Below, piece after piece: positions 9,580 through 44,353 of a DNA stretch of 64,000 nt. Positions within the stretch are counted from its first letter, which is position 1. Every line of letters begins with the position of its first letter. Both the position numbers and the translations under genes were made by a program. Source of the DNA: Bacteroidota bacterium (lineage in GTDB: Bacteria; Bacteroidota; Bacteroidia; B-17B0; Aurantibacillaceae); contig JAFDYB010000057.1 of assembly GCA_018267655.1 (NCBI GenBank), positions 1 through 64,000 on the forward strand. The letters run 5' to 3'. The notes beneath the pieces are model-generated. The model did not search any database, was not told the origin of the DNA, and worked only from the letters and a program-made list of their open reading frames with translations.

Positions 9580-11991
9580 ATGAAAAAATTATCGCTTATT
9601 GCCCTTTTATCAGGGGCTTTACAATCTGAGGCACAAAACAGTGTTGAAGGAAAAATTATAGATAAAAAACGTGAAGCGGTACCTTATTGCCCAATAGCCT
9701 TGCTTAATAGTGCCGACAGTAGCATTGCAAAGGGCACAATAACAAATGAAAACGGAAAATTTGTTTTTGAAAATATTAAACCAAATAGTTATTTAATTAA
9801 AATAAATTATACAGGTTATACTGACACATTGTTCTCAATTGGTACTATTGACACTTTAAGAAAAGTAAATTTACAAGCTATCACACTAAAAGAAAGTTCG
9901 GTTAATTTAAATGAAGTTTCAGTTACTGTAATGAAAAAGCCAATGGAATTTAAAAATGGCAACATAATTGTAAATATAGATGGTAGCCCAATGGCTATTG
10001 GAAATACTGTTTATGACTTGCTCATGCGGCTTCCGGGTGTAATTGTAACTGATGGCGTAATTAGCATTCAAGGTAAATCGGGGGTTAAAGTGTTGATTGA
10101 CGATAGAGTGCAGCAACTTTCTGGCATACAATTAATGGCAGTGCTAAAAAGCATGAGCGCAAATTCAATTTTAAAAATCGAGATTTTAAAAAACCCTCCG
10201 GTTAAATACGATGCCGCTGGAAATGCAGGAATTATAAATATTGTAACAAAAAAAATAAACATAACCGGTTTTAGCGGAAGCGCAAATTTTTCAAATCAAC
10301 AAGGTTTTTACGATATACAAGCAGGTGGGATAACGCTAAATTATAAAGCTAAAAAAGTTACTTTTTTTAGTGGTATAAATATATACAACAATGGTCAGCG
10401 CAATGTAAATCATAAAGAAAGAGCTATAACCTATAATGGTAATACCACTATCGTGGACGAAATTTCATACACGCATGAAAAAGGGCCTTCGGCAAATATT
10501 TTTATTGGTGCAGATTGGTTTGTAAACGAAAAAAACACCATTGGCGTCAGAGTAGAGGACATACCCGGTAACGATCAATCCGTGCGCTATGGCAGTAGTG
10601 CTATAAGCGACAATTCATTGGGCTACAGCCAACTCAACTTTCAATCAAAAATTCCTAATTATTGGAATTATGTTTACACTAATATAAATGCTGAACACCG
10701 CTTTGACACACTAGGTACAAAATTAAAATTTAACGGCGATATATATAGCCCATATAATGATGAATACCCCGGTTCGTTTCAAAATAATTATATAACCGGA
10801 GCATTAGCTCCTATACCCCCAACCGACTTTAAAAACAGTAATACAATACGCTTAAATACTTTTATTGGGCGCTTAGATTTTGAAAAAAAGATTTTTAAAA
10901 CCATTAGTTTTGAGACAGGCCTTAAAGGTACGTTTGATAATATGAGCAGCAGTTACATATTACAAAATTTAAATAACATATCCGGGGCGTATATTACCGA
11001 TACTAATTTTACAAATACCTTTACATATAAAGATCAAATTTTAGCAGGCTACATAAATGCTCAAAGGCAGATTAAAAAATTTAATTTACAAGCAGGTTTA
11101 AGAGCGGAAAACACGAGCATACAAACATTAAGCATCTCAAAAGGCATTGCATATACACGGCAGTATTTTTATTTATTTCCAAATGCAAGCATTAGTTACA
11201 GTAAAAATGACAAACACACATTTCAATTTGCATTTAATAGAAGAATAGACAGGCCCGATTACAATAATTTTAACCCTTATAGGCAGTTTAATGGAAATAT
11301 ACTTAGTTATGGTATAGGCAATCCATTTTTATACCCTTCGTTAACCAGTAATATTGAACTCTCGCATAATTATAAAGGCGTTGTGGGAGGCTCTGTTTCA
11401 TACGCTCGTACTACAAATTTTATGATGGGATACGCCACACAAAACGATACTACAAAAGTAGCTGTTGGAAAAATAGGAAACTTACAACTTTTTGAAACAT
11501 TTGCTTTGTCTTCTTTTTTTCAAAAAGATATTGCAAAATGGTGGTCGCTTTCAATTAGCGCAACCGGTTACTTTTTTAAATTTACAGGCGTTTTAAATAA
11601 TGTTGATTACACACGCTCTGCGCCATCAGGTTACGCTAACATGTCGAACACAATTATTTTTCCAAAGGGCATTAAGGCTGAAATAAGCGGCGTTTATATA
11701 GCTCCATGGTTATCTGGCGCAAATGCAATAAGCAGTAGGTGGGCTGCAAATTTTGCAATAAAAAAATCGATGTTTAACGATAAATTAAATCTATCGGTAG
11801 GAATAAACGATATGTTTTTTACACTAGGAATACGTAATACAATGTATGTGCCGGGACAAACTTTTAAAGTAAACTACACCTTTGATTCGCGCCGTTACGT
11901 AGTGGGGTTAATATACACTTTTGGAAAAATTAAAATAGAAAAAAGAGAAATTAAAGGGAATGATGAGGATAAAAAACGGTTAGGACATTAA
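9580..11991 (+). CDS. TonB-dependent receptor-like outer membrane beta-barrel protein
   Basis: An 803-residue outer-membrane protein. After a signal peptide (about 1-18) comes a carboxypeptidase-regulatory-like domain (about 21-100; GKIIDKKREAVPYCPIALL, then GKFVFENIKPNSYLIKINYTGY). A plug-like domain follows (about 115-225; TVYDLLMRLPGV, GKSGVKVLIDDR). The rest is a beta-barrel of the OMP_b-brl_3 kind, with RRIDRPDYNNFNPYRQF and a closing region VGLIYTFGKIKIEKRE. These proteins are common in Bacteroidota, and many have no known ligand. No SusD-like partner lies next to it, so uptake of glycans is not supported. It is a monocistronic unit that meets the ABC transporter genes tail to tail. Confidence 0.85.
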   Translation: MKKLSLIALLSGALQSEAQNSVEGKIIDKKREAVPYCPIALLNSADSSIAKGTITNENGKFVFENIKPNSYLIKINYTGYTDTLFSIGTIDTLRKVNLQAITLKESSVNLNEVSVTVMKKPMEFKNGNIIVNIDGSPMAIGNTVYDLLMRLPGVIVTDGVISIQGKSGVKVLIDDRVQQLSGIQLMAVLKSMSANSILKIEILKNPPVKYDAAGNAGIINIVTKKINITGFSGSANFSNQQGFYDIQAGGITLNYKAKKVTFFSGINIYNNGQRNVNHKERAITYNGNTTIVDEISYTHEKGPSANIFIGADWFVNEKNTIGVRVEDIPGNDQSVRYGSSAISDNSLGYSQLNFQSKIPNYWNYVYTNINAEHRFDTLGTKLKFNGDIYSPYNDEYPGSFQNNYITGALAPIPPTDFKNSNTIRLNTFIGRLDFEKKIFKTISFETGLKGTFDNMSSSYILQNLNNISGAYITDTNFTNTFTYKDQILAGYINAQRQIKKFNLQAGLRAENTSIQTLSISKGIAYTRQYFYLFPNASISYSKNDKHTFQFAFNRRIDRPDYNNFNPYRQFNGNILSYGIGNPFLYPSLTSNIELSHNYKGVVGGSVSYARTTNFMMGYATQNDTTKVAVGKIGNLQLFETFALSSFFQKDIAKWWSLSISATGYFFKFTGVLNNVDYTRSAPSGYANMSNTIIFPKGIKAEISGVYIAPWLSGANAISSRWAANFAIKKSMFNDKLNLSVGINDMFFTLGIRNTMYVPGQTFKVNYTFDSRRYVVGLIYTFGKIKIEKREIKGNDEDKKRLGH

Positions 11992-31956: not shown

Positions 31957-32691
31957 TTATACGGCTTGTTTTTGTGCTTCAATTTGTGCTTTAATAACGT
32001 TTAAAAAATTAAAGTTAGTTTCTAAAATGTTGCCAATAACAATCACGTTTGCCCCAGATTTGTATGCATCAACAAATTTTTTGGGAGTATTTATTCCTCC
32101 ACCAATAATTATAGGCAAGGCGCAATGTTTTTTTATTTTTTTTACAAATTGTGATCGTACACTATGTTTAGCGCCACTCCCAGCTTCTAAATAGATTGCT
32201 TTTAGGCCTAATAAGCTTGCTGCAATAGCAATATTTTCTAATAACAAATTGTTTTTGAGAGGCTTATTTTTGGTAATTTTTTGAGTTTCTGATATTTTTT
32301 TGCCATCAAATAAAATATAAGCAGTTGCTAAGCAATTTGCTTTAAAGTAATTAATTTTTTTAGCAGCCAAAATAGCTTTACCGCTTATATATTCTGCGTT
32401 TGTGCCGGCAATCATGCAGGGGAGCAGTAAGGCATCAGCTTTTTTTGAAATTTGGTGTTCATCGCCCGGGAAAAGTACAACCGGCAAAGGGCTTAGTTTT
32501 TTTATTTTACTTACTGTTTGATTTATATTACCGCTGTATAGCCTGCTTCCGCCAACTAAGAAAAAACTAATGCCGGCACTTTGCGCGTTAATAATAACCG
32601 TTTCATTAAATTTATCAGGATCAATGAGCACTGCAACGCAAGTTTTTTTGCGTTTAATAAAGGTATTTATATTAAACATTTGCTTTAACAT
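31957..32691 (-). CDS. geranylgeranylglyceryl phosphate synthase-like (PcrB family) protein
   Basis: A 244-residue TIM-barrel enzyme of the GGGP synthase/PcrB family. It joins a prenyl diphosphate to sn-glycerol-1-phosphate in archaea; Bacteroidota homologues have GGGP or heptaprenylglyceryl phosphate synthase activity. Visible motifs are IDPDKF near the N-terminus, YLEAGSGAK (substrate/phosphate loop), PIIIGGGINTPKK and the phosphate-binding ANVIVIGN. The start overlaps the phosphopantetheinyl transferase gene by 7 bases. A bacterial ether-lipid precursor is a plausible product, but the real product is not known from sequence. Confidence 0.85.
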   Translation of the reverse strand: MLKQMFNINTFIKRKKTCVAVLIDPDKFNETVIINAQSAGISFFLVGGSRLYSGNINQTVSKIKKLSPLPVVLFPGDEHQISKKADALLLPCMIAGTNAEYISGKAILAAKKINYFKANCLATAYILFDGKKISETQKITKNKPLKNNLLLENIAIAASLLGLKAIYLEAGSGAKHSVRSQFVKKIKKHCALPIIIGGGINTPKKFVDAYKSGANVIVIGNILETNFNFLNVIKAQIEAQKQAV

Positions 32692-33224
32692 GTAAATGCC
32701 ATTACGTGAGTGTTTAAGTATTCAATGTTTAAATTAATTTCTTTTTTAAGCAACTTAGATTCTTTTGTTTGATAATAAATAACTTCTGCAAAATTACTTG
32801 TTGGTTCAAATTTATTAATATAAAGTTGGTTTTTAAAACTTACATTTTTTTCTCCTATTGCCTTATACGCAGCTTCTTTACAAGCCCAAAAATAAGTTAA
32901 GTTTAATGTTGAGGTTTCAAACTTATTCAATTCAACATCGCTTAAAAATTTTGTTTTTAGGGCTGTAATTTTTTCTCTTATAAGTTCAATATCAATTCCT
33001 ATAAACGATTCATTAGAAACAATTATTGCTAAAAGACCGTGCGAATGACTTATGGAGAGAGTTAAATCACTGTCTATTAAAAAAGGCTTGCCACTATTTT
33101 CATAACCAATACCTTTAAATGCGCTGCCAAGCTGCTTACTTAACACAAATAAACTTGCGTTTTTTTCAAGCTCTCGTTTTTTTAAATGAGGATTTATTGT
33201 TGAGTACTCATTTAGATTGAGCAT
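32685..33224 (-). CDS. 4'-phosphopantetheinyl transferase superfamily protein
   Basis: From the ATG at 33224 the protein is 179 residues long. A TTG at 33266 would add 14 residues but would leave almost no leader after the TAAGTTTG at 33285-33292. The Sfp/AcpS-type motifs are GIDIELI (Asp78, Glu80 for Mg2+) and FWACKEAAYKA (Trp113, Lys116, Glu117, Lys121). It transfers the phosphopantetheine arm from CoA to a carrier protein. It overlaps the PcrB-like gene, and no carrier-protein gene lies nearby, so the target is not known; fatty-acid ACP is most likely, with a secondary-metabolite carrier possible. Confidence 0.85.
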   Translation of the reverse strand: MLNLNEYSTINPHLKKRELEKNASLFVLSKQLGSAFKGIGYENSGKPFLIDSDLTLSISHSHGLLAIIVSNESFIGIDIELIREKITALKTKFLSDVELNKFETSTLNLTYFWACKEAAYKAIGEKNVSFKNQLYINKFEPTSNFAEVIYYQTKESKLLKKEINLNIEYLNTHVMAFTC

Positions 33225-33284
33225 ATAAAGATGTTTAAATGGATTTATGCGTTTGATTTGAAGCAATTTATTTTTTATTTATTG

Positions 33285-33332: not shown

Positions 33333-34652
33333 ATGGCAACAGCAACAGAAACAAAATTTATTCCTTACAAAGTAAAAGATTTATCGCTTGCAGAGTGGGG
33401 TAGAAAAGAAATAAAATTGGCAGAAGAAGAGATGCCGGGTTTAATGGCATTACGTAAAGAATATGGCGCTAGCAAACCACTTAAAGGCTCTCGTATTGCA
33501 GGATGTTTACATATGACCATTCAAACAGCCGTTTTAATTGAAACATTGGTTGAATTGGGGGCAGAAGTTACTTGGAGTTCTTGCAATATTTTTTCAACAC
33601 AAGACCATGCTGCTGCTGCTATTGCTGCTGCTGGCATTCAAGTATATGCTTGGAAAGGCATGAATGCCGAAGAGTTTGACTGGTGTATTGAGCAAACATT
33701 ATGGTTTGGAAAAGACCGCACACCCCTAAATATGATTTTAGATGATGGTGGCGATTTAACTAATATGGTATTTGATAAGTTTCCTGAATTGGCAAAGGGC
33801 ATTCGTGGTTTAAGCGAAGAGACAACTACCGGAGTGCATCGTTTATATGAGCGCATGAAAAATGGAACTTTATTATTACCTGCAATTAATGTGAACGATT
33901 CGGTTACTAAATCTAAATTCGATAATAAATACGGCTGTCGCGAAAGTTTGGTTGATGCCATTCGTCGTGCTACCGATGTTATGCTTGCCGGAAAAGTAGC
34001 TGTTGTGGCAGGTTATGGCGATGTTGGAAAAGGCTCTGCACAATCTTTATCAAGTCAAGGTGTTCGCGTAATTGTTACCGAAATCGACCCTATTTGCGCC
34101 TTACAAGCTTGTATGGACGGGTACCAAGTAATGAAAATGGACAATGCCGTAAAAATTTCTGATATTATTGTAACTACAACGGGCAATAAAGATATTGTTG
34201 TTGGTCGCCATTTTGAAAGCATGAAACACGGTGCTATTGTTTGTAATATTGGCCATTTTGATACTGAAATTGATGTTGCTTGGTTAAATAAAAATTATGG
34301 GAACACAAAAGATGTTATTAAACCGCAAGTTGACAAATACACCATTAAAGGAAAAGATATTATTTTATTAGCCGAAGGACGCCTTGTAAATTTAGGTTGC
34401 GCAACTGGTCACCCAAGTTTTGTAATGAGCAATTCATTTACTAACCAAACTTTAGCACAGTTAGAACTTTGGACAAACACCGCAGCCTACGAGAAAAAAG
34501 TTTATACTTTACCAAAACACTTAGACGAGAAAGTTGCGCGTTTACACTTAGGTAAAATTAATGCAGAATTAGATGTATTAACGCAAGATCAAGCTGATTA
34601 TATTGGCGTGAAAGTTGCAGGTCCATTTAAATCAGATATGTACAGATACTAA
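33333..34652 (+). CDS. ahcY: adenosylhomocysteinase
   Basis: A 439-residue S-adenosylhomocysteine hydrolase that splits SAH into adenosine and homocysteine and so keeps methylation going. It has [15 protein letters not shown] near the N-terminus, the substrate stretch [12 protein letters not shown], the NAD-binding [12 protein letters not shown] and the C-terminal [10 protein letters not shown] ending, which carries the conserved Lys-Tyr that completes the NAD site of the neighbouring subunit. Length agrees with the bacterial family. It stands alone, with its own promoter and a very strong terminator at 34670-34699. I see no SAH riboswitch in the short leader. Confidence 0.98.
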
Positions 34653-35360: not shown

Positions 35361-36773
35361 TTGAATTTAAAACTGCAATATTTTAACGCCATCGGCAAAA
35401 AGCGAAAAAAACGCAACTTCGGTCAATACTATTGGAATGAAATAAGTAATTACTGTGCTTACTTTTCACACCCGGATAGCAGTGTACTTGAAATTGGTTG
35501 TGGGTCGGGCGATTTACTTTCAAAATTACAAGGCAACATTAAAACCGGAATTGACTTTAGCGAAGAGCAAATAAACTGGGCTAAAGAAAAACATAAAAAC
35601 ATTCGGTTTGAAGTAATGGACGCGGATAACATAACACTTAATGAGACGTATGATTTAATAATATTAAGCAATCTAATTGGCTTTGTTGATGACATACAAC
35701 ATGTTTTTGAAGAAGTAAAAAAATGTTCGCACGCTAATACAAAAATTATAGTTCAATATTATAATTCGTTTTGGGAGCCCTTAATTAAATTTTCAGAGTT
35801 AATTGGAATTAAAACAAAAACTCCCGTTCAAAATTGGCTGAGTACGCGTGATATAAATAACCTTCTATATGTTTCCGGCTACGATGTTTATCGAAACACA
35901 AAACGATTAATCTTTCCGTTTTATATTCCGGTACTCTCTTTTATTTTAAATAAGTATTTTGCAAAATTTCCTTTCTTTCGCTTTTTTAGTTTAAATAATT
36001 ACAGCTTTGCAAAGCCCTTATTAACTGAAAGTAAAGCTGAGTTTGAAAAAAAATACTCTGTAAGCATTGTTATACCTGCCCGTAATGAAAGTGGTAATAT
36101 TGAAAATGCAATTTTGCGAATGCCAAAATTTTCAAAAGAATTAGAAATAATTTTTATTGAAGGCAATAGTACTGACGATACATGGAATAAAATTCAAGCA
36201 ATTCAAAAAAAATACGCCTCAACGCACAATATAAAAATAGGAAGGCAAAAAGGAAAAGGAAAAGGAGACGCCGTGCGCGAAGGCTACGCCATTGCAAGTG
36301 GCGACATATTAATGATATTAGATGCAGATTTAACAGTACCCCCTGAAGATTTACCTAAATTTTACAATACTATTGCCAGCGGGAAAGGTGATTTTATTAA
36401 CGGTACTCGCCTTGTTTATCCTATGGATAAAGAAGCTATGCGCTTTTTAAATTATTTAGGAAATCATTTTTTTAGCTGGGCTTTTACATGGCTATTGGAG
36501 CAACGGTTTAAAGACACTTTATGTGGCACTAAAGTTATGTTTAGAAAAGATTATATTAAATTAAGTAAAAACAGAATTTATTTTGGCGATTTCGATCCCT
36601 TCGGTGATTTTGACTTATTATTTGGCGCCCACAAACTAAATTTAAAAATAGTTGAAGTGCCCATTCGTTATAAAGAGCGAACCTACGGAACAACTAATAT
36701 TTCTCGCTTTAAACACGGATTAATTTTATTGCGCATGTGCCTTTTTGCAAGCAGAAAATGTAAATTTATTTAA
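35361..36773 (+). CDS. fused SAM methyltransferase and family 2 glycosyltransferase
   Basis: A 470-residue two-domain protein. Residues about 20-185 are a class I methyltransferase, with SAM motif I VLEIGCGSG (43-50) and IDFSEEQINWA as motif II. Residues about 232-470 are a GT-A glycosyltransferase of the DPM1/polyprenyl-phosphate type: SIVIPARNESGNIENAI, FIEGNSTDD, the DAD metal-binding triplet (321-323), NGTRLVYPM and the C-terminal YKERTYGTTNISRFKHG. The start is TTG; no ATG lies near it. The order (MTase then GT2) suggests modification of a lipid-linked sugar or surface glycan, but the substrate is unknown. It is in the accessory-looking region and a 41-bp repeat follows immediately. Confidence 0.85.
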   Translation: MNLKLQYFNAIGKKRKKRNFGQYYWNEISNYCAYFSHPDSSVLEIGCGSGDLLSKLQGNIKTGIDFSEEQINWAKEKHKNIRFEVMDADNITLNETYDLIILSNLIGFVDDIQHVFEEVKKCSHANTKIIVQYYNSFWEPLIKFSELIGIKTKTPVQNWLSTRDINNLLYVSGYDVYRNTKRLIFPFYIPVLSFILNKYFAKFPFFRFFSLNNYSFAKPLLTESKAEFEKKYSVSIVIPARNESGNIENAILRMPKFSKELEIIFIEGNSTDDTWNKIQAIQKKYASTHNIKIGRQKGKGKGDAVREGYAIASGDILMILDADLTVPPEDLPKFYNTIASGKGDFINGTRLVYPMDKEAMRFLNYLGNHFFSWAFTWLLEQRFKDTLCGTKVMFRKDYIKLSKNRIYFGDFDPFGDFDLLFGAHKLNLKIVEVPIRYKERTYGTTNISRFKHGLILLRMCLFASRKCKFI

Positions 36774-41031: not shown

Positions 41032-41439
41032 ATGATTTATTTAACCCGTCACGAACATTTTAACGCTGCACATAAATTATACAATCCCTCATGGACTGAA
41101 GAAAAAAACATAGAGGTATTTGGCAAATGCGCTAATCATAATTGGCACGGGCATAATTATGAGTTAATAATCACAATAAAAGGAGAGGTAAACACAGATA
41201 CAGGTTTTTTAATGGACGCCAAGTTACTAAGTAAAATAATAAAGGAAGATATTTGTGAAAAACTCGACCATAAAAATTTAAATGTAGATGTTGAAATGAC
41301 TAAAAACATTTTACCCAGCACCGAAAACCTAGCGATTGCTATTTGGAAAGAACTTACAGTTCTTTTGCCTGCAAATGTTACCTTACATTGTGTTAAACTT
41401 TACGAAACACCCTCTATTTGTGTAGAATATTTTGGATAA
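41032..41439 (+). CDS. 6-pyruvoyl tetrahydropterin synthase family protein, copy 1
   Basis: A 135-residue PTPS/QueD-family enzyme. The zinc ligands are His14 (FNAAHKL), His39 and His41 (WHGHNY), with the putative catalytic Cys33 in FGKCANHN. LDHKNLN and PSTENLAI follow. The second copy (41604) lies 164 bases downstream and folE comes after it. That order suggests a pterin pathway starting from FolE product: tetrahydropterin (BH4-like) or a folate/queuosine-type intermediate. The FGKC-NxxxHGHNY motif resembles eukaryotic-type PTPS more than E. coli QueD, but the exact product is not known. Confidence 0.85.
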   Translation: MIYLTRHEHFNAAHKLYNPSWTEEKNIEVFGKCANHNWHGHNYELIITIKGEVNTDTGFLMDAKLLSKIIKEDICEKLDHKNLNVDVEMTKNILPSTENLAIAIWKELTVLLPANVTLHCVKLYETPSICVEYFG

Positions 41440-41603
41440 TGCAAATAATCGCTTGTGTTTAATTATTAAAAGTATTATATTCGTTAAATGAAATTTTTGT
41501 ATATTAAATTTTAACTTCAGTGCAAATACACCCAAAAAATAATTGCATAAACATGTAAGTTACATACCACTAATTCGTATAAAATAAAATTAATCCTACC
41601 ACA

Positions 41604-42017
41604 TTGAACAATAAAGTAGCCGTTTACAGAAAAGAGCATTTTAATGCAGCCCACAGGCTCCATAATCCATCGCTAAGCAATAGCGAAAATCAACGCTTGT
41701 TTGGAAAATGCAATAACCCAAATTATCATGGGCATAATTATTTTTTAGAAGTTTGCGTAATTGGTGTAATTGACAATACTACCGGCTATGTAATGGACAC
41801 AAAAATTCTTAGCGATTTAATTAAAAGAGAAATTATAGAAGTGTTTGACCATAAAAATCTTAACTTAGACGTGGCTGATTTTAAAAACCTAAATCCAACA
41901 GCCGAAAATATTGTAATAGTAATTTATAACCGACTTAAACCTCATCTTAAAAAAGAGTTAGAATTGAAAGTGAAATTATATGAAAATGAAAGAAATTTTG
42001 TTGAATACCCTGCTTAA
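41604..42017 (+). CDS. 6-pyruvoyl tetrahydropterin synthase family protein, copy 2
   Basis: A 137-residue paralogue of the previous gene with the same residues: His17 (FNAAHRLH), Cys36 (FGKCNNPN), His42 and His44 (YHGHNY). The block FDHKNLNLDVAD and PTAENIVI are also kept, so both copies could be active. The start is TTG. Its end overlaps folE by 38 bases. Two such genes in a row with folE suggest a division of labour (for example one in tetrahydropterin and one in queuosine or folate metabolism), but this is inference. Confidence 0.85.
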   Translation: MNNKVAVYRKEHFNAAHRLHNPSLSNSENQRLFGKCNNPNYHGHNYFLEVCVIGVIDNTTGYVMDTKILSDLIKREIIEVFDHKNLNLDVADFKNLNPTAENIVIVIYNRLKPHLKKELELKVKLYENERNFVEYPA

Positions 42018-42699
42018 AGACAAGAAAATTAGTTTAGATAAATTGTCGCCTGGTGAGATTGGCAACGAACACATTTCAACCGGCGAAGAAACGCCCTTAA
42101 AAGAGAATGCGTTTGATATGAACGATGAGGAAAAAATAAAAAACATTGAATTTCATTTTTCTAAAATAATAGAAACGCTCGGTCTTGATCTTAATGACGA
42201 TAGCATTAAAGGAACTGCTAATAGAGTTGCAAAAATGTATGTAAATGAAATTTTTAGTGGCTTAAACCCTAAAAATAAACCAAAAATTACCTTGTTCGAC
42301 AACAAATATAAATATGGGCAAATGCTGGTTGAAAAAGAAATTACATTTTATAGCAATTGCGAACACCATTTTGTTCCCATATATGGCAAAGCACACGTGG
42401 CTTATATATCATCCGGCAAGGTTATTGGGCTCTCTAAACTTAACCGCATTGTGCATTACTTTTCAAAACGACCGCAGGTGCAAGAGCGCTTAACTGTTCA
42501 AATAGCAAAAGAGCTTCAACACATTTTACAAACACCCGATGTTGCTGTGCTTATTGATGCTAAACATTTTTGTGTTTCGAGTAGGGGTATTCAAGACCAT
42601 AATTCGGCAACAGTAACTTCGTATTATGGTGGTGCATTTGAAAATGAAAGTACTAAAAAAGAGTTTTTAAGCTACATTCAATTGGCAACTAAATATTAG
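41980..42699 (+). CDS. folE: GTP cyclohydrolase I
   Basis: A 239-residue FolE, which makes 7,8-dihydroneopterin triphosphate from GTP. The zinc-binding residues are Cys127 and His130 (NCEHHFVPIYGKAHVAY) and Cys198 (AKHFCVSSRG). The block GIQDHNSATVTSYYGG is the family signature. The N-terminal 55 residues are longer than usual for the catalytic core and not conserved. Two adjacent ATGs (41980 and 41986) are possible starts. The gene overlaps the second PTPS gene by 38 bases, an unusually long overlap that ties the two in translation. Confidence 0.95.
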   Translation: MKMKEILLNTLLKDKKISLDKLSPGEIGNEHISTGEETPLKENAFDMNDEEKIKNIEFHFSKIIETLGLDLNDDSIKGTANRVAKMYVNEIFSGLNPKNKPKITLFDNKYKYGQMLVEKEITFYSNCEHHFVPIYGKAHVAYISSGKVIGLSKLNRIVHYFSKRPQVQERLTVQIAKELQHILQTPDVAVLIDAKHFCVSSRGIQDHNSATVTSYYGGAFENESTKKEFLSYIQLATKY

Positions 42700-42704
42700 C
42701 TAAC

Positions 42705-43301
42705 ATGAAATTAGTTTTTGCATCAAGTAATGAGAACAAAATTACTGAAGTTAGGCAAAGTCTCACGCAAAATGTTAGCCTTTTAGGGTTAATGGATATA
42801 GGCATTAATTACGAAATACCTGAAACAGGCAAAACAATTTCTGAAAACTCATACATTAAGGCACTTCATGTACATCAATTTCTATTACATAAAAATTTAC
42901 CACACACTGTATTTGCTGACGATAGTGGCTTAGAGGTTTCAGCATTAAATAATGAACCAGGTGTTTATAGCGCCCGGTATGCCGGATTGGAGAAAAACGA
43001 TGCTTTAAATAACGAAAAATTATTACATCGCCTTAAGCATAAAAATGATAGAAAGGCTCGCTTTGTTACCGTTATAACATTAATACTTAATGGCAGTACT
43101 TATGTTTTTGAAGGACTTATACATGGGCAAATATCTACTGAATTAAAGGGCAGTAACGGTTTTGGTTACGATCCTTTATTTATTCCGAATGGCTATAACA
43201 AAACCTTTGCAGAACTGTCATTTGAAATAAAAAACAAAATAAGCCACAGAGCCATTGCTATTAAAAAATTAAATGATTTTTTAGTAGCACAAAAACACTA
43301 A
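42705..43301 (+). CDS. rdgB: non-canonical purine NTP pyrophosphatase (RdgB/HAM1)
   Basis: A 198-residue RdgB/HAM1 family enzyme that hydrolyses ITP, dITP and XTP to monophosphates and keeps them out of nucleic acids. Signature blocks are ASSNENKITEV, ADDSGLEVSAL, PGVYSARYAG and GSNGFGYDPLFIP, and the C-terminal KNKISHRAIAIKKL. It follows folE by 5 bases and so likely belongs to the same transcript. Its stop overlaps the end of the convergent T9SS gene by 4 bases. Confidence 0.95.
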   Translation: MKLVFASSNENKITEVRQSLTQNVSLLGLMDIGINYEIPETGKTISENSYIKALHVHQFLLHKNLPHTVFADDSGLEVSALNNEPGVYSARYAGLEKNDALNNEKLLHRLKHKNDRKARFVTVITLILNGSTYVFEGLIHGQISTELKGSNGFGYDPLFIPNGYNKTFAELSFEIKNKISHRAIAIKKLNDFLVAQKH

Positions 43302-44353
43302 TTAGTTTTCACAAATTTTAGTTGCGAAACATTGTTTAATGTTGAAATTTTTAAAACATAAATCCCAACAGTTAAGGCATTCACATCAATACTTTCATCG
43401 GTATTATTTTTAATAGATAGTAATTGTTTTCCGCTTAAATCAAGAACTTCAATATCTGCATTTTTAATGTTTTTAAAATACAATTTATCTTTAACCGGGT
43501 TAGGATATAAAGCAATATTATTTTCTGCAATTACCTCGTTTATTCCGGCAAACGTTCTGTATGAATCGCGATACCTTATAGTTGTTGGGTTAAATGAAGA
43601 TCCGGTTAAAGCGCCTGTAATTTCTAAATAAGGTATTTTAGATGTGGTTGTAAGCCATTGATAGCTGCGCTGATAATTTGGAAATCCTAATTTTACAGGA
43701 AATGTATTGAATTTCACACTGTCTTGCGAGTATTGAGTGGTAATTAAACGAATACAATTAGCTGTGCCGTAAGGCGTAGTAATAGTACCCCAACCGTCAA
43801 CCTGCGTAATTCTATAGCCTGTTTTTGAATATACGAGTGGTAGAGCGGTTGTTGTTGGCGTTGAAAATTTAAACGTTGTACTGTCGTAATTTGAATATGT
43901 TAAAGGGAACACATATAGCTCATCGGGGTTAGAATAATACGCCGGTACAGGCACAGCACTCATTGTTACCCCTGCACCAACAACCTGATACGCATTAGGA
44001 GTACTTGATTTTTTATAAAAATTATAGTAATTAGTTATTTTAACAATACCTGCGTTAATCGTATCAGCAATTTTTTCGCCGTAATCATTAATGTTTAAAA
44101 AGAAAAATGAATAAGGAGTTAACAGAGCTGATTTAAAGTTTCTTACGCCTTGGCCGGTTGGCACAGCGTTTGAAAAATCCCAGGTGAAGTTTGTGCCAGT
44201 TTGTGTGTAGCTACCTAAACTGCTTAGCGTTGTGTTGCTATAACGCAGTGTATCTCCACTACCCGGCATATTACTATTGCTCAAAGTTATTGCAGTTTGA
44301 GCCTTTGCAAAAAAACTTATTAAAACTAAAAGTATAAAATAATTATTTTTCAT
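43298..44353 (-). CDS. secreted protein with type A T9SS sorting domain
   Basis: A 351-residue protein with a signal peptide (MKNNYFILLVLISFFAKAQ) and a beta-rich central region of about 240 residues, in which I see no catalytic motif. The last 75 residues are a Por/T9SS C-terminal sorting domain: IALYPNPVKDKLYF, then IEVLDLSGKQLLSI, then VGIYVLKISTLNNVSQ and the ending LKFVKTN. T9SS proteins are cleaved at this domain and attached to surface LPS or released. The function of the central region is unknown. The gene converges with rdgB and diverges from the BamA-like gene. Confidence 0.85.
   Translation of the reverse strand: MKNNYFILLVLISFFAKAQTAITLSNSNMPGSGDTLRYSNTTLSSLGSYTQTGTNFTWDFSNAVPTGQGVRNFKSALLTPYSFFFLNINDYGEKIADTINAGIVKITNYYNFYKKSSTPNAYQVVGAGVTMSAVPVPAYYSNPDELYVFPLTYSNYDSTTFKFSTPTTTALPLVYSKTGYRITQVDGWGTITTPYGTANCIRLITTQYSQDSVKFNTFPVKLGFPNYQRSYQWLTTTSKIPYLEITGALTGSSFNPTTIRYRDSYRTFAGINEVIAENNIALYPNPVKDKLYFKNIKNADIEVLDLSGKQLLSIKNNTDESIDVNALTVGIYVLKISTLNNVSQLKFVKTN

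Follow-up and report, generated by a model that had tools for sequence, protein, structure and literature searches.

Why would a methyltransferase and a glycosyltransferase of the polyprenyl-phosphate type be joined in a single polypeptide, and which pathway would such a protein serve? The question is raised by a gene in the window, by which we mean the whole stretch of 64,000 nucleotides analysed here, from a Bacteroidota bacterium of the family Aurantibacillaceae (GenBank assembly GCA_018267655.1, contig JAFDYB010000057.1). The gene reads as one uninterrupted ORF of 470 amino acids (35361..36773, +), and its fused nature is apparent from Pfam and from relatives as well. Its TTG start is plausible, since the frame is open for just seven codons further upstream (477 versus 470) and in most relatives the start lines up closely with it.

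The N-terminal half (residues 1–222, approximately; 35361..36026, +) was delimited by Pfam and VIA-align. It matches Methyltransf_23 over residues 27–176 (E 7.5e-14, above cut-off), together with Methyltransf_31, 25 and 11, and contains the SAM-binding motif VLEIGCGSG (residues 42–50; 35484..35510, +). The C-terminal GT2 half (residues 228–470, approximately; 36042..36770, +) matches Glycos_transf_2 over residues 235–398 (E 2.1e-23, above cut-off) and carries a DAD motif at residues 321–323 (36321..36329, +). Between the halves lies a hydrophobic or amphipathic stretch (residues 181–227; 35901..36041, +), a candidate membrane-contact element judging from hydropathy. The most hydrophobic 19-residue segment of the protein is found there, at residue 183; its mean of 1.48 stays under the cut-off of 1.55 for a transmembrane helix, and this simple scan found no such helix in the fusion or in its GT2 half.

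The first-pass annotation had described both domains in a single chain with intact motifs, as Pfam and an alignment of 116 fusion proteins now confirm, and had proposed that homologues revealing a gene prediction artefact, or two separate genes in all relatives, would speak against the join. Homologues reveal the opposite. Of the 21 genomes in the relatives set, 15 (that of the window counted) have the full-length fusion, and a wider genome scan confirmed 85 loci and kept 80, all of them spanning both halves; these are mostly Bacteroidota MAGs, the others being labelled Verrucomicrobiia, Opitutia, Terriglobia and, in one case, Pacearchaeota. Among 296 Bacteroidia genomes the fusion occurs in 49, from 22 families. 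Searching the same genomes with the GT2 half alone returned the same 49 fused copies, the weakest at 317 bits, and the next GT2s below that score are stand-alone proteins at no more than 118 bits. In this sample the GT2 subfamily of the window thus occurs only fused (49 of 49 copies, none stand-alone), which rules out an artefact or split genes and establishes the join as real. No match was found in 50,697 phage records, and a phage origin was discarded.

The architecture is already annotated. Plasmid searches returned 19 matching records, 16 of which are from Azospirillum, with at least 80% of the query covered. Two of the three Azospirillum records that we opened bear the RefSeq name 'bifunctional class I SAM-dependent methyltransferase/glycosyltransferase family 2 protein', the third being named 'glycosyltransferase'. 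The bifunctional proteins (WP_137143692.1 and WP_014189992.1) have the same domain order and approximately 49% identity over more than 90% of the query. Culturable carriers of the fusion include Carboxylicivirga mesophila (L082) as well as Azospirillum. A search of the open-access literature, outside which most subscription papers fall, found no paper describing the fusion.

The type of each half was assessed from an AlphaFold2 model (mean pLDDT 84.0, pTM 0.83, built from 21 sequences only). The N-terminal half aligns with many class I methyltransferases (VIA Z about 19–21) and, judging from its predicted Rossmann-type fold and motif I, is a class I SAM methyltransferase. For the GT2 half, Foldseek ranks 1–4 are DPMS and ArnC, with 5mlz, ArnC and GtrB among the matches, and superposition on ArnC (9bhc_B) gives VIA Z 22.1 and rmsd 2.5 over 199 aligned residues. 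DPMS, ArnC and GtrB are also its best PDB sequence matches, and its DADL..PPE stretch aligns with the matching stretch in DPMS. The DPM1-like assignment made at first reading therefore stands: the predicted GT-A fold and the sequence matches support a synthase of the polyprenyl-phosphate sugar type, while a fold held in common with DPMS, ArnC and GtrB is no proof of substrate. Within this half D321 and D323 are invariant in all 116 fusion proteins, as are the conserved basic residues R350 and R440, and A322 is kept in 115. The best NCBIfam match of the GT2 half is AglJ (TIGR04182), a glycosyltransferase of archaeal S-layer glycoprotein N-glycosylation; we rejected equivalence, as the match is confined to this half and reaches 103 bits against a curated cut-off of 325.

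A neighbour shared by proteins of the same domain order had been named as the clue to the substrate, and such neighbours exist. Many close relatives carry the fusion as the last gene of a tight operon on one strand, in the order GTC3, FkbM, MT2, fusion. FkbM belongs to PF05050, MT2 is a class I methyltransferase (Methyltransf_23/11) and GTC3 matches no Pfam family. Across 110 loci we counted, no more than three genes away from the fusion, MT2 45 times, GTC3 40, FkbM 35 and GTC35 seven times; GTC3 or GTC35 is found at 47 loci and at least one large polytopic protein at 52, while 36 loci, some on short contigs, have none of these. As short contigs were kept, these counts are lower bounds; the loci were not dereplicated, and they leave out L100 and L101, which were missed by an ORF caller that favours longer frames on the opposite strand. 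MT2 lies directly upstream of the fusion on the same strand at 43 loci, with a gap of −11 to +7 nt in 34 of them.

The identity of GTC3 was approached through its AlphaFold model (pLDDT 82.9, built from 10 sequences only). At E ≤ 0.001 Foldseek gave 18 matches, each of them a GT-C enzyme or a complex that includes one, and structural alignment gave VIA Z 22.3 with ALG12 (rmsd 5.8, 416 aligned) and 19.6 with ArnT (5f15; rmsd 4.9, 439 aligned). An acidic pair, D61-D62, is invariant in the GTC3 alignment. GTC3 is thus predicted to be a membrane glycosyltransferase of GT-C fold.

Outside the lineage with GTC3, FkbM and MT2 the partners of the fusion change and the theme is kept. PMT_2-type membrane proteins take their place in other lineages, and at two Opitutia-labelled, Verrucomicrobial loci (L100 and L101) the intact fusion stands with an NAD-dependent epimerase and a large protein that looks by eye to be a membrane protein, and at L101 with a methyltransferase too. 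An EamA protein adjoins the fusion at L089. The neighbours in Azospirillum differ again, being galE and a nucleotide sugar dehydrogenase, or a PF03706-type membrane protein directly upstream; in two of the three opened records this protein overlaps the start of the fusion (Pfam was run on one). At L159 a polytopic protein directly upstream (9649–11466, −) matches FRG1/Fascin-type domains in its C-terminal part. Small hydrophobic proteins near the fusion at L088, L142 and L158 were looked at by eye and did not lead to a flippase assignment.

In the window itself we saw no glycan genes flanking the fusion. The earlier remark that it stands outside any obvious polysaccharide cluster was accordingly correct for this stretch, but misleading for the genome: homologues of GTC3, FkbM and MT2 are clustered on another contig (C94:85949-89129), and the fusion is alone on its own (C54). 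The genes of the operon are present but split, the first three being on the other contig, and this is why the fusion looks orphaned here. The partner trio has an operon of ribosomal proteins beside it and a cas9 gene close by, the latter encoding a 1459-aa Cas9 with HNH_4, Cas9_a and RuvC_III domains (L110:12036-16415); approximately 0.9 kb separates it from GTC3, with a short transposase-like ORF, identified by eye, in between. Such scattered genes show how the reading of a single locus misses pathways of this kind. No GtrA flippase was found in the genome, and its single PF03706 protein, encoded on a contig other than that of the fusion, is of too widespread a family to be assigned as the flippase. 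A link between the fusion and the upstream S-adenosylhomocysteine hydrolase gene (33333–34652) was also considered and dropped as unsupported, since its cluster (c515) is confined to the window row among the loci listed in the neighbour clustering, with no homologue beside the fusion elsewhere.

The association with the partners extends across genomes. Strong MT2 homologues (E<1e-70) occur in 28 of the 296 Bacteroidia genomes, all 28 of which carry the fusion, and adjoin it in 23 of the 28 (14 of 17 families). The genome of the window is one of the five in which they do not adjoin, and in G000, G017 and G089 MT2 and GTC3 lie together, the fusion being on another contig. GTC3 is present in 35 of the 49 genomes with the fusion versus 17 of the 247 others. 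These co-occurrence tests, for MT2 and GTC3 alike, ignore phylogeny, and their p-values are uncorrected for it. Among the 49, 14 have no GTC3, 21 no strong MT2, and five neither GTC3 nor any MT2.

This context recalls three-component periplasmic glycosylation, which depends on the joint action of a synthase of polyprenyl-phosphate sugar, a flippase and a GT-C enzyme (PMC11127046). The GtrA/GtrB/Gtr and ORF15/14/12 systems, the latter with GT136, likewise link a synthase-like enzyme to a glycosyltransferase of GT-C fold (PMC11127046). The ArnC/ArnT pair, which adds aminoarabinose to lipid A, is also close, ArnC being the structure that the GT2 half matches best and ArnT being among the matches of GTC3. 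Unlike the three-component systems, the putative synthase here shares its chain with a methyltransferase, two more methyltransferases are present in the operon of the relatives, and the search for a flippase led to no assignment.

In our view the fusion is probably an enzyme with two activities in a pathway of lipid-linked sugars, a variant of the Gtr/Arn-type three-component system. On the cytoplasmic face, the GT2 half would load polyprenyl phosphate with a sugar taken from a nucleotide donor, as DPM1, ArnC and GtrB do; the N-terminal half, with MT2 and FkbM, would O-methylate the lipid-linked sugar or its glycan on the cytoplasmic side; a flippase would carry the lipid-sugar across the membrane; and the GT-C partner would attach the sugar to a glycan, lipid or protein outside the cell. 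The lipid acceptor, the sugar, the methylation target, the order of steps, the flippase and the final acceptor are those that we infer, and one and the same sugar may be both methylated and transferred, the first reading having suggested that one surface glycan or lipid-linked sugar is both methylated and glycosylated. SAM being cytoplasmic, the fused half should carry out its methylation before the flipping step, on a target that may be the lipid-linked monosaccharide, the nucleotide sugar or a longer glycan. A more specific version, which we put forward tentatively and hold to be somewhat less than an even bet, is that the fused half methylates the sugar while it is on polyprenyl phosphate, that only the pre-methylated lipid-sugar is flipped and placed by the GT-C enzyme, and that MT2 and FkbM add further methyl groups. 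If true, this would constitute a lipid-linked route to methylated glycans, beside those in which nucleotide sugars or finished chains are methylated.

The two halves might instead serve separate stages in the making of one glycan: the GT2 half would produce the lipid-sugar and the methyltransferase would cap the growing glycan elsewhere, with the fusion ensuring only co-expression or co-localisation at the membrane. The methyltransferase half does diverge much faster, having 28–73% identity to the window in the 20 other rows of alignment A1 versus 60–89% for the GT2 half, as if its substrate varied. A known fusion of this kind points the same way: A064R of Chlorovirus PBCV-1, which also holds glycosyltransferase and methyltransferase domains in one chain, methylates the end of a glycan, its third domain adding an O-2 methyl group to the terminal rhamnose (PMC9614988). 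A064R differs, however, in its domain order (GT-GT-MTase) and in that its glycosyltransferases extend the glycan, and no GT-C partner is described in the parts of the source consulted (PMC9614988). Against separate steps stand the absence of any split among the 49 copies and the co-divergence of the halves, whose pairwise distances correlate with a Pearson coefficient of 0.91 across 87 sequences (the 116 fusion proteins minus near-duplicates), a value that would be expected if both halves travel together. We regard this alternative as unlikely.

Still less probable is a GT2 half that works without polyprenyl phosphate, as a soluble enzyme of the glucosyl-3-phosphoglycerate synthase type or a GT2 that builds sugar chains. 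ArnC and GtrB carry membrane helices, which in ArnC are C-terminal; the GT2 half, about 20% identical to ArnC over the GT2 domain, has no counterpart of these C-terminal helices, and GpgS is found among its weaker sequence matches. Nevertheless, DPMS, ArnC and GtrB come ahead of GpgS in sequence and lead in fold, and the partner in the operon is of GT-C fold, enzymes of this class taking their sugars from lipid-linked donors (PMC11127046). A methyltransferase half without catalytic activity, serving as a membrane or scaffold domain, is very improbable: the half is less conserved and the SAM motif is degenerate in one divergent fusion (L157, G261:C11; 42% identity), where the methyltransferase function has possibly been lost, but E44 is kept in 114 of the 116 fusion proteins and G50 and D65 in 115 each, the two losses of E44 being L157 itself and a copy cut by a contig end (L088).

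The preferred reading bears on the timing of O-glycan methylation in Bacteroidota, although any feeding of that O-glycan by the fusion is only putative. Methyl groups are common on Bacteroidota O-glycans, and a 2025 review leaves open whether they are added to nucleotide sugars or after assembly (PMC12871550). With a synthase and a methyltransferase permanently in one chain and a GT-C enzyme linked to them, a testable third option arises, methylation at the stage of the lipid-linked monosaccharide. A search of the open-access literature for O-methylated Bacteroidota glycans with lipid carriers returned nothing. The general O-glycosylation (LFG) locus of the phylum comprises, according to the same review, metG, a wzx flippase and two conserved end glycosyltransferases (PMC12871550). 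LFG genes were not evident among the window ORFs near the fusion, and the fusion is restricted to 49 of 296 Bacteroidia genomes, unlike that general system. What is new here is the operon context of the fusion, with GT-C, FkbM and MT2, rather than the architecture that RefSeq had already named, and this context suggests a route by which methylated sugars would be added to surface glycans.

Other genes of the window merit mention. Upstream of the fusion, a PcrB-family gene (geranylgeranylglyceryl-phosphate-synthase-like) overlaps a gene of the 4'-phosphopantetheinyl transferase superfamily (31957–33266, −). Downstream, two successive 6-pyruvoyl-tetrahydropterin-synthase-like genes, of which the second was assigned by eye because it resembles the first, are followed by a GTP cyclohydrolase I gene (41032–42699, +), and a protein with a Por_Secre_tail sorting domain (43298–44353, −) is a sign of type IX secretion.
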